Source of the DNA: Paenibacillus sp. GP183
Lineage (GTDB): Bacteria; Bacillota; Bacilli; Paenibacillales; NBRC-103111
Assembly (NCBI RefSeq): GCF_900104695.1
Contig: NZ_FNSW01000001.1
Coordinates: 3,404,001 to 3,468,000 of the forward strand
Direction: 5' to 3'
Length of the DNA stretch: 64,000 nucleotides
Position 1 is the stretch's first letter; each line of letters opens with the position of its first letter. Under the pieces are notes generated by a model, which was given only the letters and a program-made list of their open reading frames with translations, had not been told where the DNA came from and made no database searches. Positions 24,181 through 51,872 of the stretch are shown one piece after another. The position numbers and the translations under genes were made by a program.

Positions 24181-24363
24181 TAAGACGTATAGTACATCTT
24201 AATTACTTGATTTAAAATTTCTAACTTCATTTAGACGTAAAACACTGCTTATATGGTTGGTTTTCTTTCATGCACCTCTAGAATGGTTCTGTAAGACGTA
24301 AAACACATCTTTTCTCGAAAGAAATCATTAAAATCCCCTAAGTAAGACGTAAAGTACGTCTTA
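24181..24363. repeat. Array A: four 21-bp palindromes with 50/61/51-bp steps
   Basis: Copies at 24181-24201, 24231-24251, 24292-24312 and 24343-24363. Copy 4 is the best palindrome (TAAGACGTA, three-base centre, TACGTCTTA); the others are degenerate versions sharing AGACGTA. Start-to-start steps are 50, 61 and 51 bp, so the set is mirror-symmetric about position 24272. The spacer between copies 1 and 2 also resembles the reverse complement of that between copies 3 and 4 (GATTT, then TTTCT, then TTC). No gene is visible in this convergent gap. Function unknown. Confidence 0.75.
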
Positions 24364-24388
24364 TCAAATTCAAGGATGCTACAAAACA

Positions 24389-24418
24389 AGCCGGTTCAGA
24401 ATCATTCTGAACCGGCTC
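24389..24418 (-). terminator. Terminator of the flavin reductase gene
   Basis: Arms AGCCGGTTCAGA (24389-24400) and TCTGAACCGGCT (24406-24417) are perfect complements; on the minus strand they are followed by TTGTTTTG. Confidence 0.8.
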
Positions 24419-24431
24419 AACTTTTAATAGC

Positions 24432-24989
24432 TTATTTTCGCAATGGCTTCAAAGCACCGCTCCATGCGACTACCTGGTCAAGCATACCGTTGACCAATGG
24501 CTCTTGATGAGCACCCGGTTTGAATACGCTGTAGTTCTCAAAATCGGTAAAGAGCGATAACATCACTGAATTACGAACGTGAGCAATCTGAAGCTCTGAC
24601 AGGATTAGCCGCAGATTCTCGATTGCGCGTGAACCTCCAACACTGCCGTAGCCTACAAATCCCGCTGCTTTATTAGTCCATTCGTTGTACAGAAAATCGA
24701 TAGCATTCTTAAGGGCACCGGATGTTGCGTGGTTATATTCAGGTGTGACAAAAACGAATCCGTCAAAAGTTGCAATCTTTGCCGCCCATGCCTTTGTATG
24801 CTCTTTCGTGTATTGACCCATTGTCGGAGGAACAGGCTCGTCAAGCAGTGGCAGGTTGAACTGGGCGATATCTACAAGTTCATACTCGGCGTCATTTCGC
24901 TTGCTTGCAATTTCGTACACCCAGCGGGCAACAGCCTCACCGTTGCGACCCGGACGCGTACTTCCAATAATGACAGCAATTCTGTTCAT
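24432..24989 (-). CDS. NADPH-dependent FMN reductase-family protein
   Basis: A 185-residue flavodoxin-like oxidoreductase: the N-terminal phosphate-binding loop IIGSTRPGRNGEAVARW binds FMN, and VTPEYNHATSGALKNAIDFL is the family PEYN signature at about residues 82-101. The family reduces flavins, quinones, azo dyes or chromate with NAD(P)H in the cytoplasm. It is a single gene with its own terminator. Confidence 0.92.
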   Translation of the reverse strand: MNRIAVIIGSTRPGRNGEAVARWVYEIASKRNDAEYELVDIAQFNLPLLDEPVPPTMGQYTKEHTKAWAAKIATFDGFVFVTPEYNHATSGALKNAIDFLYNEWTNKAAGFVGYGSVGGSRAIENLRLILSELQIAHVRNSVMLSLFTDFENYSVFKPGAHQEPLVNGMLDQVVAWSGALKPLRK

Positions 24990-25061
24990 GATTTACTCCT
25001 CCTGATTATTCAAATTACGAATAATAGTTATTACCCTTAATTGGTAGTTATATTCCAACTT

Positions 25062-25808
25062 TTAAAGATTTACCACCAATCCGCATCGCGCTAACTGGAC
25101 ATCGCCTTTGTAAATCACCTGCACCTCTTCTGCGAGCTGGCTGATCTCGCCGAAATGAGGCAGATGAATGAGAATCAGCTTGTTCACATTTGCTTTAGCG
25201 GCGAGCTGTCCGACTTCAGCGCTATTCATGTGCCCATAATCCCGGGCATTCTCGAACTCTGCATAAAAGGAGGTTTCCGCCAGCAGCAGATCCGCATCCC
25301 TGCAAAAATCGATCAAGGACTCATCGAAAAACGTATCCGCTGTATACACGATGGTTTTGTCCTTGAATTGAATTTTAACCGCTACGCAGTAAGCCCCATG
25401 AAAGGTTTTCATGAAAGAAAACCGCATATTACCCAGCTGGAAATTATCCTTGTCCGTGAACGGAATGATCACCGATCCCATCATCGACTTATAGATGGCT
25501 GTTACACCATCTTCGCCTTGAGGATCATGAGCGAAATAAATGGGCAGCGGCTCAGCGCGAAGCTTCAAATCCGTATCGATCAAGCAAGCATATTGCAGAC
25601 AGCCAAGATCGGCAACGTGATCATGGTGGGCGTGTGTGATGATCGCATGCGACAGCTCCGTTGGCTTCATATGCTTTTGCAATTGCGCCAACACTCCGCT
25701 TCCGCAGTCCAGCAGCACCTTCTCGCCTTCATCCTCCAATAAATAACCGGCGGTAGCTTCACCCGCTTCTGGATAAGCACCCCAATGTCCCAGTATGGTA
25801 AGCTTCAT
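25062..25808 (-). CDS. MBL-fold metal-dependent hydrolase (YhfI-like)
   Basis: A 248-residue metallo-beta-lactamase fold hydrolase. The metal-binding motif is THAHHDHVADL at about residues 59-69, with further ligands in TFHGAY, YTADT and LIHL. The layout matches RNase Z-like/YhfI proteins. The substrate is not predictable. It is the next gene after the LytM peptidase gene on the same strand, with a gap of about 57 bases, so co-transcription is possible. Confidence 0.88.
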   Translation of the reverse strand: MKLTILGHWGAYPEAGEATAGYLLEDEGEKVLLDCGSGVLAQLQKHMKPTELSHAIITHAHHDHVADLGCLQYACLIDTDLKLRAEPLPIYFAHDPQGEDGVTAIYKSMMGSVIIPFTDKDNFQLGNMRFSFMKTFHGAYCVAVKIQFKDKTIVYTADTFFDESLIDFCRDADLLLAETSFYAEFENARDYGHMNSAEVGQLAAKANVNKLILIHLPHFGEISQLAEEVQVIYKGDVQLARCGLVVNL

Positions 25809-25865
25809 ATTCCAGTACCTCCGTCTCTTCTATTCGTTATACAATTCCTTCATCCTCAAGTTTTA

Positions 25866-27278
25866 TCAGGGTTGAAGCCATTTAAATGGCGTGGAGTCAA
25901 AAAACATGTTCGGATTGACAGGAACGTTATTCGCCCAAAAGGTAAAATGCAGATGCGGTCCCGTGGAAAATCCCGTAGTCCCGACAAGCCCGATAATATC
26001 GCCCTTTTTTACTTTATCCCCTGTCTTCACGCGCAGTTCGGACATATGGGCATACTGCGAGAACAACCCCATGCCATGATCGAGATAAATGGAATTTCCG
26101 GTAAGATACAGCGAATCGGCCAAGGCGACAATACCATCGTTGGTGGCCTTGATCGGAGTTCCCTCTTTCGCCGCCAAGTCGATGGCCCGATGGGAGCTGT
26201 CATACTTGCCGTTCACATAACGAGTATAGCCGTAGGGCGTTGTCAAAATCCCCTCAACAGGCTGGATAAAATCCGACGAGAATAAAAACTCCGGCGCAGA
26301 CCGGCTGCGAGCCATATCGATTTTCTTTTGGTCGGCCTGGATGCGGGCTGTGTCCTGCCTCATGCTCTCCATTTGCTTGGTGACCTCAAGATATTGGGTA
26401 TCGAACTTTTTGGCTTTGACGGTCAGAATCTGATCGCCGACGGGATAGGGACCCGGTTTCAAATCAATCGACAACGGCAGGTAAGCAAAATACCCCGTAC
26501 CAAAAGACTGCAGGGGATACTTCTTCCCTTGCCAGCTTATTTCCCCCGCTTCCTTATGCCGCACAAGTACAACATCTCCCGGCGATGCCGATTTGGGGAA
26601 GAGGGTCCAATCGGACTGGATCGCTGCTTTTGCCGCTTCTTTGGCCGTGTAATAGGCAGCCTCTTGAAGAAGAGTCTGTATGCGTTTTTGCTCTGCGTTC
26701 ATCACCGATGTGACGTCCGGGGTCACTTGGTCGGTCCAGGTTCCTCCACCGTCCACGGTAACGAGCAACGTGGGATCCAAACCTTCTGCTGCAAGCACCC
26801 ACCCCACTCGATCCGTAAGAAATTGTGACTTCATTACATCGAGGGTCTTAGACTTAAAGTTTACAGTAAGCGGCTTAGGCAAAGTACCGAGCAGCGCTTG
26901 CAGTGTTTCATCCCCGGCAGAGTCCGGTGCAAGCTGATCAACGGTTGCTTCTGTCCAGCTCACTCCCCCGTCTTTGGTGATCTTGGCGCTGTCCGCGTAT
27001 CGAATCCAGCCTTGGGAAAGATTTTGCATATGAAAATCGAGGATTACCTTTTTCTTTGCCACGGGTGAAGCAGTTGGAGCCGGGGATATACTTGTCGCTG
27101 CTGTATGACCTTGCAAGGCTCCATGCTCAGGCGCCAAAACAGGCCTTCCCATAATGAAAATAACGGCCAAACCAGCGAGCGCAAAAAGTCCCAGCAGGAA
27201 TGCCCAATACCTGCCCGAGCGCCACATCGGCACACGCTTACCGACTCTAATCTTGCGAGGATTTCGTTCTGAAGCCAT
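25866..27278 (-). CDS. M23/LytM-family peptidase, membrane-anchored
   Basis: A 470-residue protein. It has a basic N-terminus and one membrane helix (residues ~24-46), then an extracytoplasmic region with two segments resembling BNR/sialidase-like turns (DGGVSWTEA and DGGGTWTDQ), an Ig-like middle (about 240-330), and the peptidase domain (about 350-460) with zinc motifs SHRAIDLA and GPHLHF plus HGMGLFSQYAHMS. Family enzymes cut glycyl peptide or peptidoglycan cross-links outside the cell. It probably acts in cell-wall remodelling; the fusion with an N-terminal sensor-like region is less common. Confidence 0.87.
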   Translation of the reverse strand: MASERNPRKIRVGKRVPMWRSGRYWAFLLGLFALAGLAVIFIMGRPVLAPEHGALQGHTAATSISPAPTASPVAKKKVILDFHMQNLSQGWIRYADSAKITKDGGVSWTEATVDQLAPDSAGDETLQALLGTLPKPLTVNFKSKTLDVMKSQFLTDRVGWVLAAEGLDPTLLVTVDGGGTWTDQVTPDVTSVMNAEQKRIQTLLQEAAYYTAKEAAKAAIQSDWTLFPKSASPGDVVLVRHKEAGEISWQGKKYPLQSFGTGYFAYLPLSIDLKPGPYPVGDQILTVKAKKFDTQYLEVTKQMESMRQDTARIQADQKKIDMARSRSAPEFLFSSDFIQPVEGILTTPYGYTRYVNGKYDSSHRAIDLAAKEGTPIKATNDGIVALADSLYLTGNSIYLDHGMGLFSQYAHMSELRVKTGDKVKKGDIIGLVGTTGFSTGPHLHFTFWANNVPVNPNMFFDSTPFKWLQP

Positions 27279-27419
27279 ACAGGCGGCCTCCCGTAATTAT
27301 GAAATTTCCGCTCTGCAGCGGTTGCTCGTCCTCCTTCTATAGTACGCTAACTTTTGAAAAAGGAGAAATAACTTCTTTGTCGAAATGCTAAATAACGCTA
27401 TGAAAGAGAGGTTATTCGA

Positions 27420-27911
27420 TTGAAGAGCATACCTTTCGAGATGCTGGAGCAAGCCGTTACAGAGGAGCAGCTCATCCAGCTGCAAATGATTGTTAATACA
27501 GAAGGGCATTCCAGCTTTTATCGTTTACTCAATGGATTTACGGCCAGAATCAAAAGCTTCACCGATCCGGAGGAGCATGAAGTCAGGAGTTTGCTCGATA
27601 AAGCAAAGCGGCTGTTTCCGACCCCCGTTCTATTCAGCCCGTCATGGGACAAAGTGTGGAATGAGCTTGAGCAGATTATTACGCATAAAGCGAAGATTTT
27701 GCAATCCGTTCCACCGGAGGAAAGAGACGGAGAATGGCAAATCGTCATGGACAATCCGGCCACGATCCAGGACGTTGTGTGTTATCCCGGCCTAGCATTC
27801 TTGGACGCTGTGTACCTCTTTGCCTACTTCCGACCGCAAATGGAAAAAAACGAGTATCTGCGTTTACAAAAAGTCCAAACCTTGTTTATGCAGCTTGGAT
27901 CGGACGCCTAA
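27420..27911 (+). CDS. Hypothetical protein
   Basis: A 163-residue, mostly helical soluble protein with no signal peptide or membrane segment, starting at a TTG preceded by AGAGAGG. I recognise no family. It contains many charged residues and the segment FRPQMEKNEYLRLQKVQTLF near the C-terminus. It lies 30 bases before a glyoxalase-like gene on the same strand, so the two may be co-transcribed, and it is divergent from the LytM peptidase gene. Confidence 0.7.
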   Translation: MKSIPFEMLEQAVTEEQLIQLQMIVNTEGHSSFYRLLNGFTARIKSFTDPEEHEVRSLLDKAKRLFPTPVLFSPSWDKVWNELEQIITHKAKILQSVPPEERDGEWQIVMDNPATIQDVVCYPGLAFLDAVYLFAYFRPQMEKNEYLRLQKVQTLFMQLGSDA

Positions 27912-27940
27912 TGAATATAACCAAATAACGAGGAGAGATC

Positions 27941-28339
27941 ATGATGAGTTCAGCACCATTTCAAATCCAAAAAATTAAGCAGCTATCCATTCCTGTGCAT
28001 GAATTGGATGCTGCCGTTGCTTTTTACCAAGAGAATCTTGGACTTCCGCTGTTGTTTCGTGTTCCGAATATGGCCTTTTTGGATTGCGATGGGATTCGCA
28101 TCCTACTCAGTGTTCCGGAGACGGAAAAGTTGGATCATCCGAGCTCGATTGTTTATTTCCAGGTTGAAGATATCGATGCTTCCTATCAAGCTTTGCTGGC
28201 GCGAGATGTCCATTTCATCGGGAAACCGCACAAAATCGCAGAAATGAATCAAATCGAAACCTGGATGGTGTTCTTCAAAGACCCGGATGAGAATGTTCAT
28301 GCCCTTACCGCGGAAAAACCGGTGTCCGCAAAAGCCTAA
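27941..28339 (+). CDS. VOC/glyoxalase-fold protein
   Basis: A 132-residue vicinal-oxygen-chelate fold protein: LSIPVHELDAAVAFYQENLGL at the start and the second half DPDENVHALTAEKP, the typical DPxGNxxxL-like ending. Family members include glyoxalases, dioxygenases and antibiotic-resistance proteins; several metal ligands expected for glyoxalase I are not obvious. GAGGAG precedes the ATG. It overlaps the convergent response-regulator gene by a few bases. Confidence 0.88.
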   Translation: MMSSAPFQIQKIKQLSIPVHELDAAVAFYQENLGLPLLFRVPNMAFLDCDGIRILLSVPETEKLDHPSSIVYFQVEDIDASYQALLARDVHFIGKPHKIAEMNQIETWMVFFKDPDENVHALTAEKPVSAKA

Positions 28340-29052
28340 AGGTGCTGCTTGGTACCCTTGTAAACCCGCTCCGGGCGCCCGACGGAACCGTAGGACAGGT
28401 CGGCTTTCAGCCGGCCTTCCGAAACCAGATACTCCAGGTATCTTCGCGCGGTAGATCGGCTTGCGCCAATAGAACGGGACACCTGCTCTGCCGTTAAGCC
28501 TTCCTGTTCCTCTGTAATGACGGAAACGATTTTTTCCAACGTCAGCTTGTCGATGCCCGTAGGTAAATAAGGGGCATCCCTCTTATCCTCACCTTTGATC
28601 AAATAATCGATTTCATCCTGGCTGATTTGTCTGCCTTCTTGCTGCAGCTGGGCCAACCGGGATCGAAATACATGATATCTTTTCAATGTGTCCTGCAATC
28701 TTTCAAAGATCAGCGGCTTCAAAATGTAATCGAAGGCGCCGCCTTTTACAGTTTCCCGGACCGTTTCAATTTCTTTGGCTGCGCTGATCATGATCACATC
28801 GGTGTGGGGATACTGTTTTTGGATGATTTTCAGCAATTCGAGTCCGCTGGTGCCCGGGAAATAAATATCCAGCAGAACCAAATCTATCTCAAGATCATCC
28901 AGCAAATCCAAAGCCTGAATAGTATCCGTCGCAATCCCCGTCACTTCAAAGCCTGCCACTCTTTCCACGAACCTGCGATTAATTTCCGCGATCCGCCTCT
29001 CATCATCTACAATCAAAACATGAAGTGTTTCCATTTGCTTCACGAGTGCCAT
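28336..29052 (-). CDS. CitB/DcuR-type response regulator
   Basis: About 238 residues: a receiver domain (LHVLIVDDERRIAEINRRFV, phospho-acceptor Asp in VLLDIYFPGTSG, switch Lys in YILKPL) and a C-terminal helix-turn-helix (LTAEQVSRSIGASRSTARRY). The layout matches regulators of the CitAB/DcuSR group, which control uptake of citrate and C4-dicarboxylates. It overlaps the kinase gene by a few bases and can start at ATG 29052 or GTG 29055. No dicarboxylate transporter gene is adjacent in this window. Confidence 0.9.
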   Translation of the reverse strand: MALVKQMETLHVLIVDDERRIAEINRRFVERVAGFEVTGIATDTIQALDLLDDLEIDLVLLDIYFPGTSGLELLKIIQKQYPHTDVIMISAAKEIETVRETVKGGAFDYILKPLIFERLQDTLKRYHVFRSRLAQLQQEGRQISQDEIDYLIKGEDKRDAPYLPTGIDKLTLEKIVSVITEEQEGLTAEQVSRSIGASRSTARRYLEYLVSEGRLKADLSYGSVGRPERVYKGTKQHL

Positions 29053-30248
29053 CACAATTCACCCCTTACTTGTTGCACCTTTGGTTTGGGTATGGCTACA
29101 GTGAAGACAGTGCCTCCGTTTGAACTCCTGGAAACCGTCACGTAGCCGTTTAATTTCGTCGCTGCCCGCTGAACCAGAAACAATCCGAACCCGCGCCCTG
29201 CTTCATTCTTGGTAGAAAACCCCAATTCGAACACCTTGTCGCCGTTTTCATCCGGTATGCCAATTCCGTTGTCCTCACACTCAATAATCAGATCGTCACC
29301 CAGATCCGTAAAAAATACCTTCACCGTTTTCTCGCTCAGATCCGATCGTTCCAATACAGCATCCATCGCATTATCAATAATGTTGCCAATGATCGTAACT
29401 AACAGATCGCGGTCCAATTCAGCTGAAACGTCCCGAAAAATGCTTTCCCGGTCAATCTCAAAATGTACCTTCAATTCCTGCGCCCGATTAAATTTGCCGA
29501 TAAGCAGGCCGCCATTAATCGGATCGGGAAATTCCTTCATGATAAAATGCACCAGATTGTGATGGATGTCCGATTCCCGCGAAATCACTTCTATGGCTTC
29601 ATGGTACGACTCAAGCTGAATAAGGCCGGAAATCATATACAGCTTATTCGAAAACTCATGCGTCTGGGCACGTAATGCTTCCGCATATTTCTTAACCTGA
29701 GACAGCTCCTGCCCCAGCTTGAATATCTCCGATTTATTCCGAAAGCTCGAGACCGCGCCGATCACCTGCCTTTGGCGATTGACGATGGGAATTCGGTTGA
29801 TGATCAGCTCATTTTCTCCAAACCACATCTGTTGATCAAATTCCGCCCTGCCGGTTCGGATCACCTCTAACAGCCGAGTGGACGGCAATAAATTCAAGAT
29901 ATGCTGTCCCGTTATCTCTTTTACATTCCTTAGCTCCAGCAAATGAATGGCGGCCTCATTGACCATGGTTATAATGCCCTTGGAGTTAATGGCAATGATG
30001 CCCTCGCGTATTGACTCGAGAATGGCTCTTTTTTCCTCATACAAGGCAGCAATTTCCTGAGGCTCTAGGCCAAGTATCGCTTTTTTCACCATATTGGCTA
30101 TGAAGATAGCCCCTGCGATTCCGAATAGCAAGGTGAAGAAGCCAATCATCATAATCTGATTCTTATAATTCCTGATCAATAACCTGAAAAAAGAAGGAAA
30201 CAGCCCATACGGGTACAAAGATTCAACCCCGCTTGCCCAATTGACCAA
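29052..30248 (-). CDS. CitA/DcuS-type sensor histidine kinase, N-terminally truncated
   Basis: A 398-residue kinase with one membrane helix (residues ~33-55), a PAS domain (about 70-180), a SpoOB-like phosphotransfer helix with the His in RAQTHEFSNKLYMISGLIQL, and an ATPase domain (NIIDNAMDA, ECEDNGIGIPD, GRGFGLFLV). Relatives begin with a first membrane helix and a roughly 130-residue extracytoplasmic sensor domain; both are missing here. Homology begins only just before helix 2 (LLIRNYKNQIMMIGFF). The upstream DNA has an in-frame stop and may belong to another gene's remnant, so the ligand-sensing part was probably deleted. The kinase may be locked in one state. Confidence 0.82.
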   Translation of the reverse strand: MVNWASGVESLYPYGLFPSFFRLLIRNYKNQIMMIGFFTLLFGIAGAIFIANMVKKAILGLEPQEIAALYEEKRAILESIREGIIAINSKGIITMVNEAAIHLLELRNVKEITGQHILNLLPSTRLLEVIRTGRAEFDQQMWFGENELIINRIPIVNRQRQVIGAVSSFRNKSEIFKLGQELSQVKKYAEALRAQTHEFSNKLYMISGLIQLESYHEAIEVISRESDIHHNLVHFIMKEFPDPINGGLLIGKFNRAQELKVHFEIDRESIFRDVSAELDRDLLVTIIGNIIDNAMDAVLERSDLSEKTVKVFFTDLGDDLIIECEDNGIGIPDENGDKVFELGFSTKNEAGRGFGLFLVQRAATKLNGYVTVSRSSNGGTVFTVAIPKPKVQQVRGEL

Positions 30249-30294
30249 GGATTATGGCGCGATTGCTGTAGCCAAAGATTCCCTCACAATTTAA
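30180..30294 (+). pseudogene. Possible C-terminal remnant of another gene
   Basis: On the plus strand, antisense to the odd N-terminus of the kinase, a frame reads NLKKEGNSPYGYKDSTPLAQ then LTKDYGAIAVAKDSLTI and a TAA stop at 30292. It looks more protein-like than the kinase frame over the same bases. I cannot name the parent family. It may mark a deletion junction that joined two genes tail to head. Confidence 0.35.
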
Positions 30295-30379
30295 CTTTTA
30301 CGCTTAAACTATTCGCGGCCGGTGAGAAGATTTATACTTCGAATTGAAGACGCTTTCTTTTAATCAGGGAGGTTAGAAA

Positions 30380-30622
30380 ATGAGTTCAGAGATCCAAGCG
30401 ATTGTTGATATCAATCAAACTGCGGCCCGTTTTAAATCGAGCATCGTGCTTCGCATTAATCACATCAAATTTGTAGACGTCAAAAGCATACTCGGTCTAA
30501 GTATTACCTTGTATCGAAGTCATGATTATAAGCTGGAAATTCACGGACCTGACGAGACGGAAGCCAGAGCCGCCATGCTGGAGGTTTTCAAAAAGCATCA
30601 TCTGCTCGTGCAACTGATTTGA
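30380..30622 (+). CDS. HPr/Crh-like protein lacking the active-site histidine
   Basis: An 80-residue protein that aligns with HPr from about HPr residue 11 onward: the Ser46 region is present as VDVKSILGLSI (Ser36 here), and the C-terminal DETEARAAMLEVFKKHH fits HPr helix 3. The HPr strand carrying GLHARPA with the phospho-accepting His15 is missing. Crh of Bacillus also lacks this His and works only through Ser46 phosphorylation in catabolite repression. A similar role is possible here (inference). A clear GGGAGG precedes the ATG. Confidence 0.7.
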   Translation: MSSEIQAIVDINQTAARFKSSIVLRINHIKFVDVKSILGLSITLYRSHDYKLEIHGPDETEARAAMLEVFKKHHLLVQLI

Positions 30623-30697
30623 TCCCTTGCGCAGTTTTTGAGGACTTCAATCACCTCGATGATGGAGTGATGGTCGAAGGCAGCTTTCAATTGGATT

Positions 30698-30883
30698 AGT
30701 GAGTGAAATCTCACTATTACTGAGTTTACTCTCATTAATGAAACTCAATAATCCAAATAAATTAGCTTTAATGAGCCTAGACTCCTTATTCGTGAACATG
30801 AGTTCGTTAATAGTGAGCCTAGACTTATTAACTCAATTCAATGGGTAATGCAGCCATTATTTAGTGAGCCTAGGCTCACTACT
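30698..30883. repeat. Array B1: six 21-bp units in a 2-3-1 layout
   Basis: Units start at 30698, 30719, 30770, 30791, 30812 and 30863. Each is a degenerate palindrome with arms AGTGAG and CTCACT around a short core such as CCTAGA, followed by AAT/ATT. Two units, a 30-base spacer, three units, a 30-base spacer, then one unit (a seventh position at 30884 is no longer recognisable). The layout is base-for-base the same as in array B2 at 44260-44466. Function unknown. Confidence 0.8.
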
Positions 30884-30917
30884 ATTAAGCTTCGCCTCCA
30901 TGGACACCACAAACGGC

Positions 30918-30967
30918 AAAAGGGATGTCTCTATAGTAGATGGATCTACTTCGGAGACATCCCTTTT
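30918..30967. terminator. Long terminator-like hairpin
   Basis: Arms AAAAGGGATGTCTC (30918-30931) and GAGACATCCCTTTT (30954-30967) pair perfectly, with a nested AGTAGAT / ATCTACT inner stem. T-rich on both strands, so it may act bidirectionally. It lies upstream of the HPt-like gene. Confidence 0.7.
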
Positions 30968-31113
30968 TATAGTCAATATAGACCACAGAAATCTGCTTTA
31001 ATCCGCAGACTGCGCCAAACGCACCAGCATATGGGCTAGATCGATATTTAGAGGATTATCAAAAAACATTGTCGAATGAAGTTGACAAAAATGTAATGGA
31101 GGGCATACATAAC

Positions 31114-31440: not shown

Positions 31441-31487
31441 AACGGAGCGCTGTCTGGCAAAAGGCTGGATACTCAATAGCAAAAATA

Positions 31488-31520
31488 AATCTGGCTGGCA
31501 AAGTTAATGGCAGCCAGATT
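31488..31520 (-). terminator. Terminator of the AHSA1 gene
   Basis: Arms AATCTGGCTG (31488-31497) and CAGCCAGATT (31511-31520); on the minus strand TTTATTTTTG follows. Confidence 0.75.
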
Positions 31521-31542
31521 ATGCAGAGATATTCTTCAATCT

Positions 31543-32055: not shown

Positions 32056-32095
32056 TTCATTGCCTCCTAAAGTTGTTGTTATATTGATTCTTTTC

Positions 32096-32517: not shown

Positions 32518-32573
32518 GTATAATCACCTCCCAAAAATGAGTATTTATTTGATATCTTAAATATACCATAAAT

Positions 32574-32597: not shown

Positions 32598-32655
32598 TTA
32601 AGGAAAAAAAATCCAATCCCCTAAGGACTTGGATCATTTCTTTAAGTTCTGCTGA

Positions 32656-41455: not shown

Positions 41456-41462
41456 AGAAAAA

Positions 41463-44215: not shown

Positions 44216-44580
44216 CGGTGATTCTTGTTACACAGCTATTATCCGTAGCGCATCCTTTAAATGAGTCTAAACTCACTAGTAGTGAGGACAATCTCCTTAT
44301 TTTGTCCTCAAATCCACCTTGCATCTCATTTAGTAGGGCTAACCTCACTATTAGCGAATTTAAGTTCACTAACAGTGAGTTTGGACTTACAAACTTATAT
44401 TTTCATGGATTACTTCGATGGAGTAGTGATCTCAGACTTACTAATAGTGAGTTTACCCTCACAATGAGTCATAAGCGATAAGCGATAAAAACTGGGATAA
44501 CCATTATCGATGGCTTTCAGATGCGAGACCGCGAAAATGAACACAATAAAGGGCACCCATCTGGTGCCCAATTTCTATTT
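44216..44580. other. Gene-free region holding array B2
   Basis: Convergent gap between the nucleotidase and the desaturase. No gene seen. It contains the seven-unit palindromic repeat array at 44260-44466. Beyond 44467 only a short direct repeat AAGCGATA (44473-44487) is notable. Confidence 0.7.
44260..44466. repeat. Array B2: seven 21-bp units in a 2-3-2 layout
   Basis: Units start at 44260, 44281, 44332, 44353, 44374, 44425 and 44446; each is a degenerate palindrome with arms like AGTGAG and CTCACT. The two 30-base spacers follow units 2 and 5. The array is mirror-symmetric about 44363 and has unit offsets identical to array B1 at 30698-30883, 13562 bases upstream. Confidence 0.82.
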
Positions 44581-45594
44581 TTATGCTTTACGTTTAAATG
44601 AAAATTGCTTAAGGTCCTTGAAGCCTACAAATTTCTTGCTCTGCTCACTCCAAAAGCGGAATCGGAGTGACTTCAAGCTGGTTAGTAAGGTTATCGTCTG
44701 TACATCGCGCAATTTAGCATTAGAGCTATGCACTTTTTCCAGGTAATAGTTAGGAACTCTTGGGCTCAAATGGTGAATATGGTGATAACCGATGTTGCCC
44801 GTAATAAAATGCAGCACTTTCGGAAGCTTATAGAAGGAACTGCCATGCATGGCAGCTTTCACAAAGTCCCAATTTTCTTCCCCTTCAAAGTAGGTATCTT
44901 CAAACTGATGCTGTACGTAAAAGAGCCAAATGCCAATTGAACCCGAGATCAAAAAGATCGGACCCTGAATCAGAAGAAATTGCTGCCAGCCGAGTAACCA
45001 GCAAAGCAATCCAGCCCCGCCAATAATGCCAACGTTGGTAATGTAAGTGTTGAAGCGTTCTTTCGTTCCGGCCTTTTTGCGGTTAAATCGGTATTCCAAT
45101 AGGAACACGTAGATGGGCCCAATAACAAACATCGAGAAGGGATTCCTGTATAAGCGGTAGAACAAACGTCGAATCCATGAAGATGATAAATACTCCTCAA
45201 CTGTAAGCGTCCATATATCGCCTGTTCCGCGTTTATCCAGATTGCCGCTTGTAGCATGATGAACAGAATGGCTGTGTCTCCATTGGAGATAGGGCACGCA
45301 TGTCAGAATACCGAATAGAGTCCCGACAATTTCATTCGCCATGCGGTTTTTGAAAAAGGATTTATGACAGCAATCATGAAAAATAATGAAAATCCGTACC
45401 AGAAACCCCCCGGCTGCAACAGCAAGCGGAAGGGTAATCCAATAAGAAACCGATAGACTTAAGTAGGCTGCGGACCAAAGTAAAAGAAAGGGTACAACAG
45501 AATTAATGATTTGCCATACACTGTGTTTGATATGGGGTCTTTCGTAAGGTGCCATGTCTTTGCGCCATTGATTGTGTTGTTCCTCTTGGAGCAT
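44581..45594 (-). CDS. Membrane fatty acid desaturase
   Basis: A 337-residue di-iron membrane desaturase with the three histidine boxes HDCCHKS, HSVHH and HIHHL and four hydrophobic segments, resembling the acyl-lipid Des of Bacillus that inserts a double bond at low temperature. GAGAGGAAG precedes the chosen ATG at 45594. No DesKR genes are adjacent. The promoter region upstream has been left next to an IS4-family insertion at 45779. Confidence 0.92.
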   Translation of the reverse strand: MLQEEQHNQWRKDMAPYERPHIKHSVWQIINSVVPFLLLWSAAYLSLSVSYWITLPLAVAAGGFLVRIFIIFHDCCHKSFFKNRMANEIVGTLFGILTCVPYLQWRHSHSVHHATSGNLDKRGTGDIWTLTVEEYLSSSWIRRLFYRLYRNPFSMFVIGPIYVFLLEYRFNRKKAGTKERFNTYITNVGIIGGAGLLCWLLGWQQFLLIQGPIFLISGSIGIWLFYVQHQFEDTYFEGEENWDFVKAAMHGSSFYKLPKVLHFITGNIGYHHIHHLSPRVPNYYLEKVHSSNAKLRDVQTITLLTSLKSLRFRFWSEQSKKFVGFKDLKQFSFKRKA

Positions 45595-45721
45595 TATATG
45601 ATTATCTTCCTCTCTCAATGACAAACACATGGATCATATTTGTCCCAATAACGGTATTACGTTTAAACTCGTAAAGGGTTCCAGTTAATTTATTCGATCC
45701 TATTCTCTTATCTCAATATAA

Positions 45722-45759
45722 AGACAGTATCGTTGGTAAACTCACCCGTCATACTGTCT
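45722..45759. promoter_or_regulatory. Palindrome upstream of the desaturase
   Basis: AGACAGTAT (45722-45730) and ATACTGTCT (45751-45759) are perfect arms around a 20-base centre, in the promoter region of the desaturase gene. It may be a regulator site or an mRNA hairpin. Confidence 0.4.
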
Positions 45760-45778
45760 ATATGAGTCATATAGAATA

Positions 45779-47299
45779 CACTAAGCTTGCATCAAACTTC
45801 ACATTAACCACTTAACTTGCTTGTTTTTGATTAAAAAATACTTAATAGTAATAATTTTACAGTAACTCAATTTCCGTAACAGCTAAAAAAGGAAAGTGGA
45901 GTTAAGACAGCGCGTATTCCCATAAAATGGAATATTCATTTATCTTGGCCTAAAGTAAGATCATTCGTTGCGACTCTTGCTTGGCTCTTCCCGCCGTGTC
46001 CACTTTTTGTCTTCCTTTTGACTGGCGCGTGGGTGGTCGATTCAGCTCCTGCTTAAACACCTTCCACGGGTGGTACATGTACGTTCGCAGCAGTTGTAAA
46101 AGGTTCCACTGACTTTTTCCTGTTTGCAAAGCTAGCTTTACAAGCATACTCACAGCAAAAGCAATCAGGGACAAAAAGAGTTGGTTCCACACTGAATCAG
46201 GTTGGCAGCCATGCAGGTTCACTAGCTTCAAATGCTGTTTCATCCATTTAAAGAAAAGCTCAATTTTCCAGCGATTCTTGTAAATGTAGGCAATCTCATT
46301 TGCAGTTAAATCCCATCGACTTGTTATTAACCGGTAGCGGCGGCCCTTGTCATCCTCAAATTCAACCAGACGTAATGGAGTTGTGGTCTTGTTTGTAAGT
46401 ACATCCACATCCTGAAGCAGCCGGAGTGGCCCAACGCTTGCCACACTCTTACGTTCACTACCGCTAATGGGATATAGATGTGTTCGATCCCGCACACGCA
46501 CCACGAAAAGCTTATTGTCCGTTATCCAGGTTTGGAAATTAGGGAGGCTTTCATAACCCCGATCCATGACATAGGTGACATCATCTTCCACAACCATATC
46601 TAGCACGACCTTATTTTCCCGTACATTGACCGTAGAAGCAATGACCTTATCCGGGAATACGGTGTCAGGATCTGCAACAACCACACGAACATGAAGACGA
46701 ACCCCTGTTTTTCGCGACCCACAGCGAGCCCAACTGCCTAATAAAGCGGGAAGGGAAATGTCCGTAGCATCGATGATATGCAGACGCCCAATGTTCGGCG
46801 TAATTCCAGCCCCCGACTTCGTTTTCTGGTCGATTTGGCTGATGAGTTGAAAGAAGATCTGCTGTAGGGTTTGGGTGCATAAGCTATTCGTTTTGCGAGA
46901 AAGCTGTGCGCTGCTGATGGACTCCAGGCCGATCGCTTGTTGCAATTGCGGATGCGCACGCAATTGTTCGGTAATGACATCATACGTAGGGAGTTGCAGC
47001 AATTGAGCGATCACATGAAGCTCGATAGCCGTACCTGAAAACAACTTTTGGGTTCGATGATCGTCGAGTACAGAACGATAACCTGAAACATTGAGAGTAC
47101 GTAGGCATTGACAAATGACGCGAATATCTTTAACGTTATCCATGGTTAAGCTCCTTATTGGAGAAATGATGGATAACACGCCGTCAATTCAACAATAAGG
47201 GCTTTTTTGTTTTTTATCCACGAAATAACATCAATTTATTCCATAAATAGGAATTAATGAGAACAATATTTTCATGTCAGGTTTGATGCAAGCTTAGTG
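45779..47299. mobile_element. Intact IS4-family insertion sequence with 9-bp target duplication
   Basis: Perfect 19-bp terminal inverted repeats CACTAAGCTTGCATCAAAC (45779-45797) and its complement at 47281-47299. It is flanked by the direct repeat TATAGAATA (45770-45778 and 47300-47308). Length 1521 bp, one transposase gene. The perfect duplication and ends point to a recent insertion between the desaturase promoter region and aarF. Confidence 0.95.
45950..47143 (-). CDS. IS4-family transposase
   Basis: A 397-residue DDE transposase: first Asp in LHIIDATDISLP, second in TYVMDRGYESLPN, and the IS4 Y-(2)-R-(3)-E-(6)-K signature in YKNRWKIELFFKWMK. The frame is uninterrupted and the element ends are perfect, so it may be active. 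TAAGGAG precedes the ATG at 47143; a longer start at 47179 falls upstream of this site. Confidence 0.95.
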   Translation of the reverse strand: MDNVKDIRVICQCLRTLNVSGYRSVLDDHRTQKLFSGTAIELHVIAQLLQLPTYDVITEQLRAHPQLQQAIGLESISSAQLSRKTNSLCTQTLQQIFFQLISQIDQKTKSGAGITPNIGRLHIIDATDISLPALLGSWARCGSRKTGVRLHVRVVVADPDTVFPDKVIASTVNVRENKVVLDMVVEDDVTYVMDRGYESLPNFQTWITDNKLFVVRVRDRTHLYPISGSERKSVASVGPLRLLQDVDVLTNKTTTPLRLVEFEDDKGRRYRLITSRWDLTANEIAYIYKNRWKIELFFKWMKQHLKLVNLHGCQPDSVWNQLFLSLIAFAVSMLVKLALQTGKSQWNLLQLLRTYMYHPWKVFKQELNRPPTRQSKGRQKVDTAGRAKQESQRMILL

Positions 47300-47325
47300 T
47301 ATAGAATATCGTTTTCAGGTGTCAA

Positions 47326-48999
47326 TCAGAACCTCCCAGACTTAAAAATCGAATACAGCAGCCACAGCAGCATCAAGCCTGCAACCGCCGAGCCGACCTC
47401 GATCACCGGGAAATGCAGGATGAGGGAGGGTGTTTTGCCTACCGATGTGGCGACGATGAGTCCGACCATGATCAGACTGAAGGAGAGCAGCACGATACTG
47501 ATCGAGATGCGGTTGCTGATCTGATCCAATTTGCGCAGCAGCAAGTCGATTTCCGGGATGCCGATCTCCACCTTCAGCTTACCGGTACGGATAAGCTTCG
47601 TCAGATGGCTGGCCTGCTTGGGAAAGCTGATGATGGTGTCGGCCAGGGCCGAAAGCTGCTTCCACCATCTTTTGTGCATCTGCTGCGGCTGGAGGCGTTC
47701 CTTCAGCAGGCGGAGTCCGAAGGGCTCGGCCAGATTGACCAAGCTTAGATGCGGATCCAGCTTCACCGCAACGCCCTCTACGGTAATCATCGCTTTGCCA
47801 AGCAGCGTCAAATCGACGGGCATCCGGATGCGATGCCGGTTGGCCACCACAAACAAATCGTTCAGGACATCGCCTAAACTGAGCTGGGACAAAGGTATAT
47901 CATAGTACAGTTCCCGCAATAGATCCAGGTCGAACTGAAGCTCATTTGTATCCATCTCCTCCTCAACCAGCCCCAGGCGCAGAATAGCTTTGAGAATTCC
48001 ATCGCTGTCCTTGCGCATCAATGCGATGAGAAGCATGATTAATTGGTCCTTCATCTCCTCATTCAAGCGCCCCACCATGCCAAAATCGACAAAAGCAATG
48101 CTTCCGTCCATGCGTACAATAATGTTCCCCGGATGGGGATCGGCATGGAAAAATCCTTCAATCAGCACTTGATGAAACATGGAGTTGACGAGCCGCTCCG
48201 CGACTAATTTGAGGTCATGTCCTTGTTTCAGAAGGGCTTCAGGCTGGTTCAGGGTGATGCCTTCGATATATGATAAAGTCAGCACTTTCGACGTGGTATA
48301 TTCCCAATATACTTTTGGGATATGTACATCAGGCTGCTGGACAAACTGCCGGGCAATTTTATCCGCATTCCTGCCTTCCAGCGTATAGTTCAGCTCTTCC
48401 CGCATCGATTTGGACAGTTCCTCGATCATTCTTCGGATCTGATTATGTGCCATCCACTCCAACCGCCTTTCGGCGATGGTTGCCAGTTCCTCAAGAATGT
48501 CCAGATCCAAATTAATCATTTGATCCACCAAAGGGCGCTGCACCTTAACCGCTACGGCTTCACCGGTGATCAGCCGGCCTACATGAACCTGGCCGATAGA
48601 AGCAGCTGCCAAAGGGATCTCCTTGAACTCCTGAAACATATCGCCGAGCGGCCGATGAAGCTCATTTTCGATGATCATCCGCACCTCTTCGAACGAAAAA
48701 GGCGGCACTTGATCCTGCAGCTTCTGCAGCTCGAAGATAACATCCTCCGGAAGCAGATCATGGCGCGTACTGGATAATTGACCTAATTTAATAAAGGTCG
48801 GCCCCAGCTCCTCCAGCACCAGCCGGATGCGTTCTCCTAGGGATTTGACCGTTTCCGGCTCTTTTCTGGCAAACCATTTTCTTGGAAGCTTCGGCATTTG
48901 GAAGAGCCCCATCTCTTCAACCATGTAACCAAAGCCATGTCGAACCAGAGTCATAATAATCTCGCGGTAGCGGTTGGTGTGCCGGAATTTGATAGCCAT
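47326..48999 (-). CDS. AarF/ABC1/UbiB-family atypical kinase
   Basis: A 557-residue protein of the ABC1/UbiB family: the invariant KxGQ motif is in FIKLGQLSSTRHDLLP, the A-rich loop replacing the normal P-loop in PLAAASIGQVHVGRL, then VAVKVQRP and the catalytic HADPHPGN and FVDFGMVG. Two hydrophobic helices lie at the C-terminus (about 500-550). Family members support quinone synthesis or lipid handling as unorthodox ATPases. It is preceded by a phasin-like gene two bases away, a pair common in Bacillales. Confidence 0.92.
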   Translation of the reverse strand: MAIKFRHTNRYREIIMTLVRHGFGYMVEEMGLFQMPKLPRKWFARKEPETVKSLGERIRLVLEELGPTFIKLGQLSSTRHDLLPEDVIFELQKLQDQVPPFSFEEVRMIIENELHRPLGDMFQEFKEIPLAAASIGQVHVGRLITGEAVAVKVQRPLVDQMINLDLDILEELATIAERRLEWMAHNQIRRMIEELSKSMREELNYTLEGRNADKIARQFVQQPDVHIPKVYWEYTTSKVLTLSYIEGITLNQPEALLKQGHDLKLVAERLVNSMFHQVLIEGFFHADPHPGNIIVRMDGSIAFVDFGMVGRLNEEMKDQLIMLLIALMRKDSDGILKAILRLGLVEEEMDTNELQFDLDLLRELYYDIPLSQLSLGDVLNDLFVVANRHRIRMPVDLTLLGKAMITVEGVAVKLDPHLSLVNLAEPFGLRLLKERLQPQQMHKRWWKQLSALADTIISFPKQASHLTKLIRTGKLKVEIGIPEIDLLLRKLDQISNRISISIVLLSFSLIMVGLIVATSVGKTPSLILHFPVIEVGSAVAGLMLLWLLYSIFKSGRF

Positions 49000-49001
49000 G
49001 A

Positions 49002-49295
49002 CTACAAGGTAGTCGGACCAGGGGGATTGATCTTCTGCTCCAATTCACGCAAATCCTGTTTGGTGGCCACATCCAGCTCGGCCAATACCTTCTTCACTTG
49101 TTCATGTACCAACCGCTTAAGTTCAAGCCTTTGTTCTTCCCCTTTGGAGATCAAATCATTGACTACATCCCTGGATTCGTTCTTGCCGAGCTCGCCCTTG
49201 AGAACCATTTCATCCACAAATTGCTGAACCTTTTCCTTGCTTGCAGCTGTAATGCCCAGCCCCAATGCGAATGCTTTTCTCAACAAATCACTCAT
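49002..49295 (-). CDS. Phasin-like helical protein next to aarF
   Basis: A 97-residue helical protein: MSDLLRKAFALGLGITAASK at the N-terminus, then a long amphipathic helix (VVNDLISKGEEQRLELKRLV) and a C-terminal coiled-coil stretch (LDVATKQDLRELEQKI). It resembles the phasin-family/polyhydroxyalkanoate regulator-like proteins usually found beside aarF. AGGAGG precedes the ATG at 49295. It is two bases before aarF, so both are one transcript and probably act together at the membrane. Confidence 0.82.
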   Translation of the reverse strand: MSDLLRKAFALGLGITAASKEKVQQFVDEMVLKGELGKNESRDVVNDLISKGEEQRLELKRLVHEQVKKVLAELDVATKQDLRELEQKINPPGPTTL

Positions 49296-49446
49296 TTTCG
49301 CACAATCCTCCTTCATTCTTCTTCTAATTTATTAACCATAATATGAACATTTCTATCTGTATGCATGTATGAAACCAAAAACCACACAAAGCTTTACAAG
49401 TGATAGTCCCCGAATATAGAATAAATCCAATTATAGATTCGTGGGA

Positions 49447-50367
49447 TTATTCCAAAGGGTAAGAAGAAAGCTTAACGAAGGTAAACCCAGCTTTTTTCAA
49501 CATCGGAACTGCCTTGATGACTCCATCGGCCGTATCTTTTTCAGGGTGATTCATATGGGCGATGACGATGGAGCCGCTCTTTGCTTTCATCAAAGCATCA
49601 TAAACCTGCTGCGTATTAAAGGTGGCACCAGCATCGCCAAGAATACTGTAATTCACCACAGTAAGTCCGAGATCCTGAGCGATATGAACAGCTACATCGT
49701 CGTAATAAGCAGTACCCGAGCGAAAAAATTGCGGACGACGACCTGTCAGCTTCTCGATTTTATCCTCATTCATTTGCACTTCATCCACGACTTCGCTGAC
49801 ATTCCTTGTACCTCGAATTTTATAGGCGGATTGTCCAATCACAGACAAGGGACGATGCTCAAAACCATGATTCTCGATATCAAAGAGCGGATTGCGAGCC
49901 AATGTCAAAAACTGCTCTGGATTCGCATCTATCCAGCGGGCATTGATAAATAGAGTAGCCGGGATCTTCTCGTGAATGAGAAAATCTATCAGCTTTTGGT
50001 CGTACCCGCTCCCTTCCGGTCCTCCACAAGCATCGAAGGTAATTGCTATCACTTTGTCTTTGGTTTGGAGTCGGGATCGTACACCAGGGACATTCTCTCC
50101 CCAATGCAAGGGTTTGATTTTATCGTAGCGTTGAAGAATGCTTTTCTTGAGAGAATTGGAGTCAATTGTGGGAGATGCCGTTTCCATCGCTGTTGATGTT
50201 GCTGTTGATGTTGCTGTTGATGTTGCTGTTGATGTTGCTGTTTCTGTTGCTACTGTCGTGGGTGGGGATGGGGATGGCTTAGATATAGAAGTAGATTTAT
50301 TGTTGTCACAAGCGGAAAGCAGACCCAAAATAAGGAAGAAGGCCAAACCGTTTAGTCGACGTGCCAA
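49447..50367 (-). CDS. Polysaccharide deacetylase-family lipoprotein
   Basis: A 306-residue NodB-fold enzyme. The TTG at 50367 with GAGGAGG seven bases upstream gives a clean signal peptide with lipobox LLSAC. Next comes a Thr/Ala/Ser-rich linker encoded by a 12-bp tandem repeat, then the deacetylase domain: Asp in TFDACGG and the metal His pair in ENHGFEHRPLS, ending with IVIAHMNHP. It should act on surface polysaccharide or peptidoglycan; the precise substrate is unknown. Confidence 0.87.
   Translation of the reverse strand: MARRLNGLAFFLILGLLSACDNNKSTSISKPSPSPPTTVATETATSTATSTATSTATSTAMETASPTIDSNSLKKSILQRYDKIKPLHWGENVPGVRSRLQTKDKVIAITFDACGGPEGSGYDQKLIDFLIHEKIPATLFINARWIDANPEQFLTLARNPLFDIENHGFEHRPLSVIGQSAYKIRGTRNVSEVVDEVQMNEDKIEKLTGRRPQFFRSGTAYYDDVAVHIAQDLGLTVVNYSILGDAGATFNTQQVYDALMKAKSGSIVIAHMNHPEKDTADGVIKAVPMLKKAGFTFVKLSSYPLE
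50189..50236. repeat. Tandem 12-bp repeat inside the deacetylase gene
   Basis: Four perfect copies of GCTGTTGATGTT (coding for Thr-Ala-Thr-Ser on the minus strand) in the linker of the lipoprotein. Such in-frame repeats can change copy number by slippage and alter linker length. Confidence 0.9.
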
Positions 50368-50479
50368 GGTATCCGCCTCCTCAGAAAAACTGCTCATACT
50401 CATCATAAACATGCATTAGCCTTAGAATCAAGTTTACATTCATATCGTCCGACTAAGCAGGATAGTCGATCCTGAAAGA

Positions 50480-50646
50480 ATGGTTACCTTCCGTACGGAC
50501 AACCCAGCTACTCATTGAAGAGCAAAGGTCCTTTTACTTTGGAAGCTATTGAAGTATTCTTGAAGGGCGATGTATTATTCGGGCTTGCCAAGGCTGCCGG
50601 TTTCATAATAGTGGCGGACTACATGATCGCACAAGGTGTTATTTAA
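50480..50646 (+). pseudogene. C-terminal remnant of an unidentified protein
   Basis: An open frame without a start reads NGYLPYGQPSYSLKSKGPFT, then LEAIEVFLKGDVLFGLAKAA, then GFIIVADYMIAQGVI and a TAA stop at 50644. The composition and hydrophobic ending look like a real protein end, but the frame is closed upstream by stops. I do not recognise the family. It lies between the deacetylase and coaW. Confidence 0.4.
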
Positions 50647-50669
50647 TTTACTTGAAAGCGGGAATTCGA

Positions 50670-51506
50670 ATGACTTCAGTTATCCCTCTCGGTATAGATG
50701 CTGGCGGCACGCTGATTAAATTTGCTTTTTGGAATCAAAATCAACTGCATACGATCAAGCTGCCGACGGCGCACATGCAAGCCGCTGCGATTTGGATCAA
50801 GGAGCGATTTTCTAATGCATCCCTTTGCGTAACAGGTGGGAAAAGCCTTTTATTTCAATCAATGCTGGGATATGAAACGCGTTCCATGATTGAATTTGAC
50901 GCAACTTGCCATGGCGTTCAGTATCTAATTCGTGAGCAGGGAATCGCCCTGCCATCTTTTATTTTGGCGAATGCGGGAACGGGAACTTCGATTCACTGGA
51001 TCCATCCAGACGGCCATTCCCGCGTTGGAGGAACAGGCGTTGGAGGCGGCACCATACTGGGGCTGTCCTCTTTGCTCACCGGAATTGATGATTACGAGGA
51101 GATTATCCAGCTCGCGAAGCAGGGGAAAACGGATCGTGTTGATCTGAAGGTCAGCCATATCTATGAGGGAGCGGTCCCGCCCATCCCTGGCGACCTTACA
51201 GCGAGCAACTTCGGTTACGTGCTGAAGCACCCGGAGAAACAGTCACCAGAGGATCTCCTTGCCTCGATCATGAGTCTCGTCGGCGAAACGGTAGCCACGG
51301 TCAGCATCCTCGCCGCACAGCAGCATGGAGTATCCAACATCGTCTTCATTGGCTCATCATTTGCAGGTAATGATGTTCTTGGTGATGTAGTCGTGCGAAA
51401 CACAGAAATCAAGGGTGCGATACCGATGGTTCTGCAGAACGGAGAATACAGCGGGGCGATCGGAGCTTTGCTCAGCATGACTCCAAAGGGTACGGCAGTT
51501 TCATGA
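50670..51506 (+). CDS. coaW: Type II pantothenate kinase
   Basis: A 278-residue ASKHA-fold kinase: phosphate-1 motif IPLGIDAGGTLIKFAF, adenosine-region NAGTGTSIHW and the glycine motif VGGTGVGGGTILG. It phosphorylates pantothenate in coenzyme A synthesis; this type is that of Staphylococcus and some Bacillales and is usually insensitive to feedback by CoA. The ATG at 50670 is used; an upstream TTG at 50652 is possible. Confidence 0.93.
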   Translation: MTSVIPLGIDAGGTLIKFAFWNQNQLHTIKLPTAHMQAAAIWIKERFSNASLCVTGGKSLLFQSMLGYETRSMIEFDATCHGVQYLIREQGIALPSFILANAGTGTSIHWIHPDGHSRVGGTGVGGGTILGLSSLLTGIDDYEEIIQLAKQGKTDRVDLKVSHIYEGAVPPIPGDLTASNFGYVLKHPEKQSPEDLLASIMSLVGETVATVSILAAQQHGVSNIVFIGSSFAGNDVLGDVVVRNTEIKGAIPMVLQNGEYSGAIGALLSMTPKGTAVS

Positions 51507-51872
51507 ACACGGACAGAGGCTGGGCGCTTGCCGCAGGAAGAATGAAAAACATTCTTCCTGCGGCAGTCCCGACTTTTGTACGCTCTGGAACGATGAAAAA
51601 CACGCTTCCAAGGTACGATTGGCCGAGATTTGGGCCTATTTGACCTCTGGAAGCATGAAAAACATCGTTGCAGAACAGATTCTTGCTGCCGCTGCTTCTG
51701 AAAGAATGTTTTTCATCTTTTCAGGGATCCGAAGACTTGCCAACCGAGTATGTATCTTTAACGCATTAGGCATCGTGGGAAGTTGCAACTTGTTCTAACT
51801 CTCAAATCCGCCAATTGACATATGGAGGTGTATCATTCAAATGAATATGAACGAATCTATAGTTACAATGTT
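51507..51872. other. Gene-free convergent region holding array C
   Basis: Between coaW and the MFS gene. It contains the four-palindrome array at 51531-51723. No gene or clear T-tract terminator seen outside it; the first palindrome may itself terminate coaW transcription. Confidence 0.6.
51531..51723. repeat. Array C: four 25-bp palindromes with 51/62/51-bp steps
   Basis: Cores at 51535-51559, 51586-51610, 51648-51672 and 51699-51723. The first has perfect 14-bp arms (CCGCAGGAAGAATG, loop AAAAA, then the complement). Copies 2 and 3 keep TGGAA and the ATGAAAAACA centre; copy 4 is the inverted orientation with a TTTTT loop. Between copies 2 and 3 a weaker hairpin (AGGT, GGCC / GGCC, ACCT) is centred on the mirror point 51629. 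GCGGCAG in spacer 1 complements CTGCCGC in spacer 3. Confidence 0.85.

Follow-up and report, generated by a model that had tools for sequence, protein, structure and literature searches.

The repetitive extragenic palindromes (REP) and bacterial interspersed mosaic elements (BIMEs) of Enterobacteria, Pseudomonas, Stenotrophomonas and Xanthomonas are the nearest known kind to the elements described here. The sections of the literature cited here present them as extragenic imperfect palindromes, regularly spaced and often alternating, which form clusters of variable length, have species-specific copies and are frequent between convergent genes (PMC2817692, PMC1525189), and one of these sections reports that the inter-REP segments of Stenotrophomonas vary substantially in length (PMC2817692). 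Our subject is a set of palindrome arrays found in a 64,000-nucleotide stretch of the genome of Paenibacillus sp. GP183 (contig NZ_FNSW01000001.1, positions 3,404,001 to 3,468,000; hereafter the window) and in its relatives among the Paenibacillaceae. As far as the cited sections reach, the likeness to REP and BIMEs lies in extragenic palindromes gathered in regular, variable-length and species-specific clusters, and the difference in a distance between units that the Paenibacillaceae arrays keep close to 51 or 62 bp even though their linkers are nearly unrelated. The arrays also differ in their host family and in presenting several unrelated palindromes under one geometry within a single genome. 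A further trait by which REP and BIMEs are recognized is binding by DNA gyrase, IHF or DNA polymerase I.

Miniature inverted-repeat transposable elements (MITEs) and the small repeats of the Firmicutes (BOX, RUP and bcr) resemble the arrays in being short, dispersed, intergenic and palindromic; the Paenibacillaceae arrays, however, are defined by the geometry of a repeated site rather than by one terminal inverted repeat, and they grow to 16 units. Phased operator arrays, such as the pair of Fis sites of the Hin enhancer or the sites for resolvase dimers at res, likewise place dyad sites on one helical face at near-whole-turn spacing, but those serve one promoter or recombination site, whereas the arrays considered here occur at many loci with nothing else seen to be shared among them. 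With clustered regularly interspaced short palindromic repeats (CRISPR) they have in common short palindromic repeats at regular distances; in contrast to unique spacers, the segments between Paenibacillaceae units are near-copies of one another within long arrays, the half-sites vary and there are many four-unit copies per genome. There are no cas genes among ten proteins flanking six of the arrays, although no search aimed at cas was made.

In the reading that we favor, with a probability of roughly 0.57, these are interspersed non-coding arrays of putative dyad sites, REP/BIME-like in character and phased to one face of the helix, which a symmetric dimeric protein recognizes in double-stranded form. 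Each palindrome would constitute one location, with two half-sites, for a dimer of this candidate protein. The sites are separated by close to 2, 3, 5, 6, 7 or 8 turns of the helix (21, 30-31, 51, 62, 72 or 82 bp), and because they would thus face the same side of the helix, the bound proteins could touch one another.

Spacing is one line of evidence for this reading. Two scans for pairs of TGAAAAACA cores, the pattern of the array family that we call C, were made in genomes picked for a 51-bp pair, the distance being free within each genome. Among 118 pairs lying 29-59 bp apart in 13 genomes, 105 were at 51 bp and 113 at 50-52 bp, the remainder being at 30, 34, 37, 47 and 59 bp; for distances of 54-84 bp in 19 genomes (162 pairs in all), 138 of the 150 listed pairs were at 61-63 bp and the other 12 at 59, 60, 64, 65, 71, 72, 74, 77, 81 and 82 bp. 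The corresponding control patterns, read backwards, gave 1 and 2 matches. In one genome (G081), several loci have arrays built from 62-bp steps. When 218 distinct steps were analyzed for periodicity, the resultant reached a broad peak of 0.91-0.92 over 10.2-10.5 bp, with its top at 10.36, and the best period at zero phase was about 10.3 bp; a period of 11 bp was excluded, likewise when each distinct step length was counted once. The rarer steps of 30, 72, 82, 93, 103 and 124 bp also fall near whole turns, and the array family B contributes one of 21 bp. This analysis, together with those of gene orientation and mismatches, of arms, and of linkers less than 60% identical, required an outer-arm T-A, by which the Cohnella arrays and the GP183 members of family C were dropped; one step histogram was selected, being drawn from the 80 core clusters, out of 213, that had one or more steps of 49-53 or 60-64 bp and arms matching on average at 3.5 or more of 8 positions.

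The sequences that separate the units behave quite differently from their lengths. Comparing one 51-bp linker per locus from 18 loci outside Paenibacillus eucommiae, with no identity filter, the mean identity was 30% in register and 23% in a rotated control, and the 62-bp linkers of 9 loci gave 32% and 23%, respectively; an earlier comparison of 27 and 18 linkers, picked to be less than 60% identical, had a similar outcome. A slight likeness remains among otherwise nearly unrelated linkers, and the retention of near-whole-turn spacing despite them is what indicates dyad sites that act as double-stranded DNA.

The window itself holds four such arrays (table 1), and consensus matching there recovered the steps that a sequence-only reading had proposed for arrays A and C. 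That reading's central claim, one geometry under several unrelated palindrome sequences, is upheld by the unit centers of families A, B and C and by two further families described below. Its 51-bp steps in the two B arrays are likewise present, but each of these arrays has seven units and not the six that were counted; the mirror symmetry that it saw is real as geometry, although the centers of the B arrays coincide with their fourth unit, 1.5 bp away from where they had been placed. Within B1 the fourth and seventh units are weak, matching 12 of 20 consensus positions, and the fourth unit of array C has its A-tract flipped.

Table 1. Palindrome arrays of the window and the hairpins beside them. 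Positions are counted from the first nucleotide of the window; unit centers and steps were obtained by consensus matching.
Feature	Position	Strand	Units	Unit centers	Steps (bp)	Consensus
Array A	24181..24363	.	four palindromes: 24181-24201, 24231-24251, 24292-24312, 24343-24363	24191, 24241, 24302, 24353	50/61/51	TAAGACGTAAAACACGTCTTA
Array B1	30697..30902	.	seven palindromes, ~20 bp each	30706.5, 30727.5, 30778.5, 30799.5, 30820.5, 30871.5, 30892.5	21/51/21/21/51/21	TAGTGAGCCTAGGCTCACTA
Array B2	44259..44464	.	seven family B palindromes	44268.5, 44289.5, 44340.5, 44361.5, 44382.5, 44433.5, 44454.5	21/51/21/21/51/21	
Array C	51535..51723	.	four palindromes: 51535-51559, 51586-51610, 51648-51672, 51699-51723	51547, 51598, 51660, 51711	51/62/51	TGGAANNATGAAAAACATNNTTCCA
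Intrinsic-terminator-like hairpin, apart from array A	24387..24419	-				
Terminator-like hairpin and T-run beside B1 (read by eye)	30919..30968	.				
Terminator-like hairpin and T-rich run beside B2 (read by eye)	44551..44577	.				

Further copies are scattered through the 5.83-Mb GP183 genome (G000). Counting the window copy, family A has five matches there when 183 bases serve as the query and seven when 196 do. The B1 query gave three matches, B1 itself included and B2 not among them; one B copy (L007, G000:C1:2368714) has seven units with steps 21/50/21/21/50/21, and another (L008) holds five of the seven units. The family C unit has 59 matches at up to 3 mismatches, against 0 for the reversed control, and these resolve into 15 elements of four units each, two pairs and a lone unit (G000:C1:4691229, whose flanks were not fetched). 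For 10 of the 15 elements, one of them spanning contig ends, all four units are in the match list, and for the remaining 5 the unit absent from that list is a weaker match that was found by a separate search. Their steps are 51/62/51, give or take one base, with the exception of one element at 55/62/51 and one at 51/62/61. The sequence-only reading had proposed looking for the 51-bp step in other copies of the same repeats, and the 51/62 step does recur in them, far above the reversed-pattern control.

A search for mutually similar palindromes added a fourth family, D, in GP183 (L035; steps 52/62/52, with two weak matches of 11/21 left out), and a fifth, E, in P. eucommiae (G001, taken to be that species; steps 50/61/50), where it stands alongside family C-like arrays. 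In 464 kb of GP183, 12 of whose 20 stretches had been chosen for earlier matches there, the search returned 38 pairs of similar palindromes no more than 300 bp apart, with peaks at 51/52, 62, 113 and 163/164 bp, and none in a first-order shuffle. The stretches of the other genomes (G001, G020, G021, G044 and G085) were chosen blind. Pairs fell at 51, 52 and 114 bp in 400 kb of G021 (others at 33, 118 and 151), at 52, 62 and 112-114 bp in 400 kb of G085 (others at 102, 149, 184, 196 and 225), and once each at 51 and 68 bp in G020; G044, which belongs to another family, had pairs at 102 and 255 bp only. A sequence-independent palindrome scan at 51-62-51 recovered the C arrays and a few others, and it is weak because other spacings gave comparable numbers of lower-scoring matches.

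The regularity could in principle be a coincidence, or the product of tandem duplication from one ancestor with the spacing itself unconstrained. The units within a tandem array are near-copies, so that many of the steps are not independent, just as duplication would have it. Against this, shuffled sequence (one shuffle per sample) contained no pairs of similar palindromes, linkers of equal length are nearly unrelated across loci and species, several unrelated palindrome families have the same steps, and the spacing spectra seen so far speak against such an origin, which we regard as highly improbable.

Some variants of these elements deserve description in their own right. An array of G085 (L375:15354-15715) consists of seven units at steps of 51 and 61-62 bp in which the cores TGTGAAACA and TGAATTTCA alternate; its arms resemble those of family C and the core is changed. 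In L014 (G000:C1:322776) and L055 (G000:C1:1246109) the core is duplicated within a unit (AACGATGAAAAACAATGAAAAACATCGTT type) and one palindrome is lengthened. Several GP183 C elements (e.g., L017) show to the eye a small palindrome (e.g., GGCAC-ATT-GTGCC) midway in the 62-bp linker, 31 bp from its neighbors, and a similar one is seen in P. eucommiae copies about 21 bp from unit 3. GP183 has another repeat at 39-40 bp steps, with hairpins TTTTGCTAAAGCAAAA in L044:18240-18440 and L035:14470-14550 and AATTTTCGTAGAAAATT in L033:9470-9620; those of L044 and L035 directly precede a sequence like a ribosome-binding site (AAGGAGG/AAGGGGG) and a start codon.

Beyond GP183, the GTDB species genomes were scanned for pairs of TGAAAAACA cores at a distance of 51 bp, and at least 120 loci had such a pair. 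Among the matches listed, 51 of the 120 have palindromic flanks by a simple filter, which missed one true array (L159, Cohnella terricola); these palindrome-flanked loci, apart from L106 and L109, belong to Paenibacillus, Cohnella and one metagenome-assembled genome of the Bacilli. The first of these exceptions, a Thaumarchaeota contig with four 51-bp-spaced core matches, proved to be a 17-residue coding repeat and was dropped. An exact 51-bp core pair occurs in 21 of the 104 genomes of GP183's family and in none of the other 83, with two matches overall to the reversed pattern; 90 pairs are found in P. eucommiae and 15 in GP183. P. marchantiophytorum and Paenibacillus sp. Root444D2 have arrays of up to 15-16 units, with steps of mostly alternating 51 and 62 bp, and P. 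nanensis has a 15-unit array with steps of 51-53 bp. Most family C arrays outside GP183 have a half-site of approximately TARNRNTG facing an A/T core.

A palindrome in DNA may be a hairpin in RNA, and the sequence-only reading had suggested a folded element, of RNA or DNA, that evolves by compensating changes. Arrays of RNA hairpins with a conserved secondary structure, acting in processing, stability or termination, would account for the low folding energies predicted for C elements (calculated without a shuffle control), for the extended imperfect stems of some copies and for the correlation of the arms across species to which we return below. The arms were compared within P. eucommiae in 158 units from 49 arrays. 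Of 4 variable positions the left and right half-sites share 3.253, as opposed to 3.226 when permuted, and 549 of 2000 permutations reach the observed value; 88 of the 97 non-consensus units have two different half-sites. The arms of a unit vary independently in this species, which largely refutes the RNA explanation there. Nor is there the excess of G-U over A-C that pairing RNA should leave: arrays that lie between co-directional genes have 74 G-U, 84 A-C and 137 other mismatches on their sense strand, and when mismatches are pooled by core orientation G-T (74) is no commoner than A-C (106), the per-array comparison having used 70 of the 80 kept core clusters. In the gap of L252, the half-site TTTAGCGC is present in five copies and its complement in none, which counts in favor of dyad sites. 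Compensating evolution was thus not borne out, and for the test for compensatory changes that had been proposed a failure is shown within P. eucommiae only, given the correlated arms of other species. The A-tract of family C is seen on either strand, whole-turn spacing has no obvious meaning for RNA, and there is no Rfam match at the gathering threshold within the window. Separate terminator-like hairpins adjoin arrays A, B1 and B2; with a separate hairpin beside it, A does not have to serve as the terminator for its neighboring genes. Taken together, we consider an RNA function for the arrays quite unlikely. Pairing across units, of a left arm with the right arm of the next unit, had been suggested by array C of the window and by L135, in which the units are inverted relative to one another; in P. 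eucommiae the complementarity of neighboring units was at the level of chance (347 of 2000), and this candidate was set aside.

The arrays are largely extragenic, as are REP and BIMEs, with 5 of 60 overlapping a called open reading frame (ORF). All 60 have called ORFs on both sides, of which 34 pairs are tandem, 20 convergent and 6 divergent, while all gaps longer than 150 bp in the loci from Paenibacillaceae, among them those that hold arrays, number 153, 41 and 56, respectively (Fisher p of 0.006 for convergent and 0.03 for divergent); the arrays are shown to be under-represented in divergent, or promoter, gaps. Those of GP183 outside the window comprise 10 tandem, 7 convergent and 1 divergent among 18 classed, with 2 unclassed. 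The four window arrays do sit in gaps between genes, as had been claimed, but all four, not three, have convergent flanks in a mechanical list of ORFs. Pfam backs both flanking genes for A, B2 and C and only the left one, an 80-amino-acid HPr-like ORF, for B1.

Turnover at one site could be followed in the gap between prmC and spoIIR, using the 30 best SpoIIR matches from the 104 family genomes, 29 of which had both flanks. The numbers of family C units there are 16, 4, 1, 4, 2, 0, 5, 0, 0, 11, 4 and 1, and then 0 in the other 17, so that 9 of the 29 carry one unit or more and 7 carry two or more; the steps are 51, 62 or 63 bp, with one of 104. Two of these gaps (L258 and L259) hold a different repeat, GGAACTAC(A/G)GTCCGCTAT, with an inverted partner, where relatives hold palindrome arrays. 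In P. eucommiae, 12 of the 24 four-unit copies extracted share a linker motif, on which they were selected, and align through their linkers, as expected of a dispersed family; conservation in these 12 fades beyond the outer units and no target-site duplication was identified by eye. The suggestion in the sequence-only reading that the arrays behave as interspersed elements is supported by these aligned copies and by the 0-16 units at a single orthologous locus.

The same results would also fit a reading of the arrays as non-autonomous mobile repeats of a REP/BIME or MITE kind, bound as hairpin or double-stranded DNA by a transposase, with a spacing that reflects the transposase complex and no function for the host. 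In favor of this are also the 16 called arrays within 400 kb of P. eucommiae taken blind, the very uneven copy numbers among genomes and the alternation of adjacent units in some arrays, as in BIMEs. This alternation is complete in L252 (+-+-) and is seen by arms in L135; each unit of L114 and L176 is a palindrome in itself, and many arrays have all their cores in a single direction. The REP-associated tyrosine transposase (RAYT) is held to drive REP and BIMEs, but it (NF047646) was over the cut-off in none of the 104 family genomes, and P. eucommiae, the richest in arrays, had no match at E<=0.001; because of this the arrays are not filed here as BIMEs, though they look and may behave alike. 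Matches below the cut-off occur in 13 of the 104 genomes, GP183 included. As a separate observation, 7 of the 12 sub-cut-off REP_Tyr_transpos matches of GP183 lie on its second contig (G000:C2) and are probably copies of an IS200-like transposase. Nor is there a transposase among the ten proteins beside six long arrays, which are prmC, spoIIR, purN, purH, an ABC transporter, an ECF sigma factor, a trypsin-like protease, an FMN oxidoreductase and two without a Pfam match; one array lies between purN and purH. No target-site duplication was established, and tandem arrays of 51-bp steps only or 62-bp steps only are not explained by a transposition complex alone. We therefore think it unlikely, though by no means negligible, that mobility is the whole explanation.

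As a source of the binding protein, the genes adjacent to these long arrays were rejected, being ordinary and unrelated. An origin from phages or plasmids has no support either: none of 32 pattern matches in viral contigs has two units that each pair 5 or more of their 8 arm positions, and plasmid and phage searches, with one array queried in each, gave no match.

Several results weigh against dyad sites phased on one helical face. Some steps (34, 37, 47, 74, 77, 116 and 126 bp) are off whole turns, and the peak of the period is broad, with two step sizes dominating. The genomes of both distance scans were chosen for having a 51-bp pair, and the loci of the GTDB scan for that same distance, which leaves the distribution of distances inside those genomes as the unselected part. 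Many pairs are repeats inside one tandem array and not independent events; what counts as independent is how many loci and families there are. Within-unit arms are correlated in the other species (2.33 vs. 1.88; 0 of 5000), which base pairing predicts likewise, and so are the arms of neighboring units (2.58 vs. 1.88; 0 of 5000). Shared ancestry or species-specific half-sites may lie behind this cross-species correlation, which is the chief result against a pure half-site model. The tandem arrays L114, L173 and L176 have near-perfect palindromes, each with its own arms, another result that pairing would predict. An array is dispensable at prmC-spoIIR, since 20 of the 29 relatives have no recognised unit there. 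Finally, no binding protein was found, and the flanking genes examined are ordinary ones that differ between arrays.

If the arrays are nonetheless dyad sites for a dimeric protein, contacts between the bound molecules would give rise, at the ends of genes, to a nucleoprotein patch that is stiff, bent or bridged, and this patch could be an element that organizes the chromosome or insulates transcription or supercoiling. The palindromes of families A to E, and others, would be the sites of diverged members of one protein family; array length would change by the gain or loss of modules of 51, 62 or 113 bp, and the arrays would be spread, in the manner of REP and BIMEs, by some agent. More tentatively, and at somewhat less than even odds, we suggest that they represent a new class of chromosomal element, in which arrays of dyads at whole-turn distances keep their geometry while the palindromes diversify, and on which an undescribed and diversifying family of dimeric DNA-binding proteins would assemble at the ends of genes, along a single face of the DNA. 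Judged by listings and abstract openings, the open-licence literature in PMC has no account of these arrays in Paenibacillus, which does not prove their absence in print.

Should this be correct, a common soil- and plant-associated genus has a class of repeats that is defined by spacing and not by sequence, and that sequence-based repeat finders would split or miss. Array DNA, used as bait, would offer a handle on a chromosome-organizing or mobilizing protein, and linkers of 51, 62, 72 and 82 bp would provide a natural series for the study of helical phasing in vivo.

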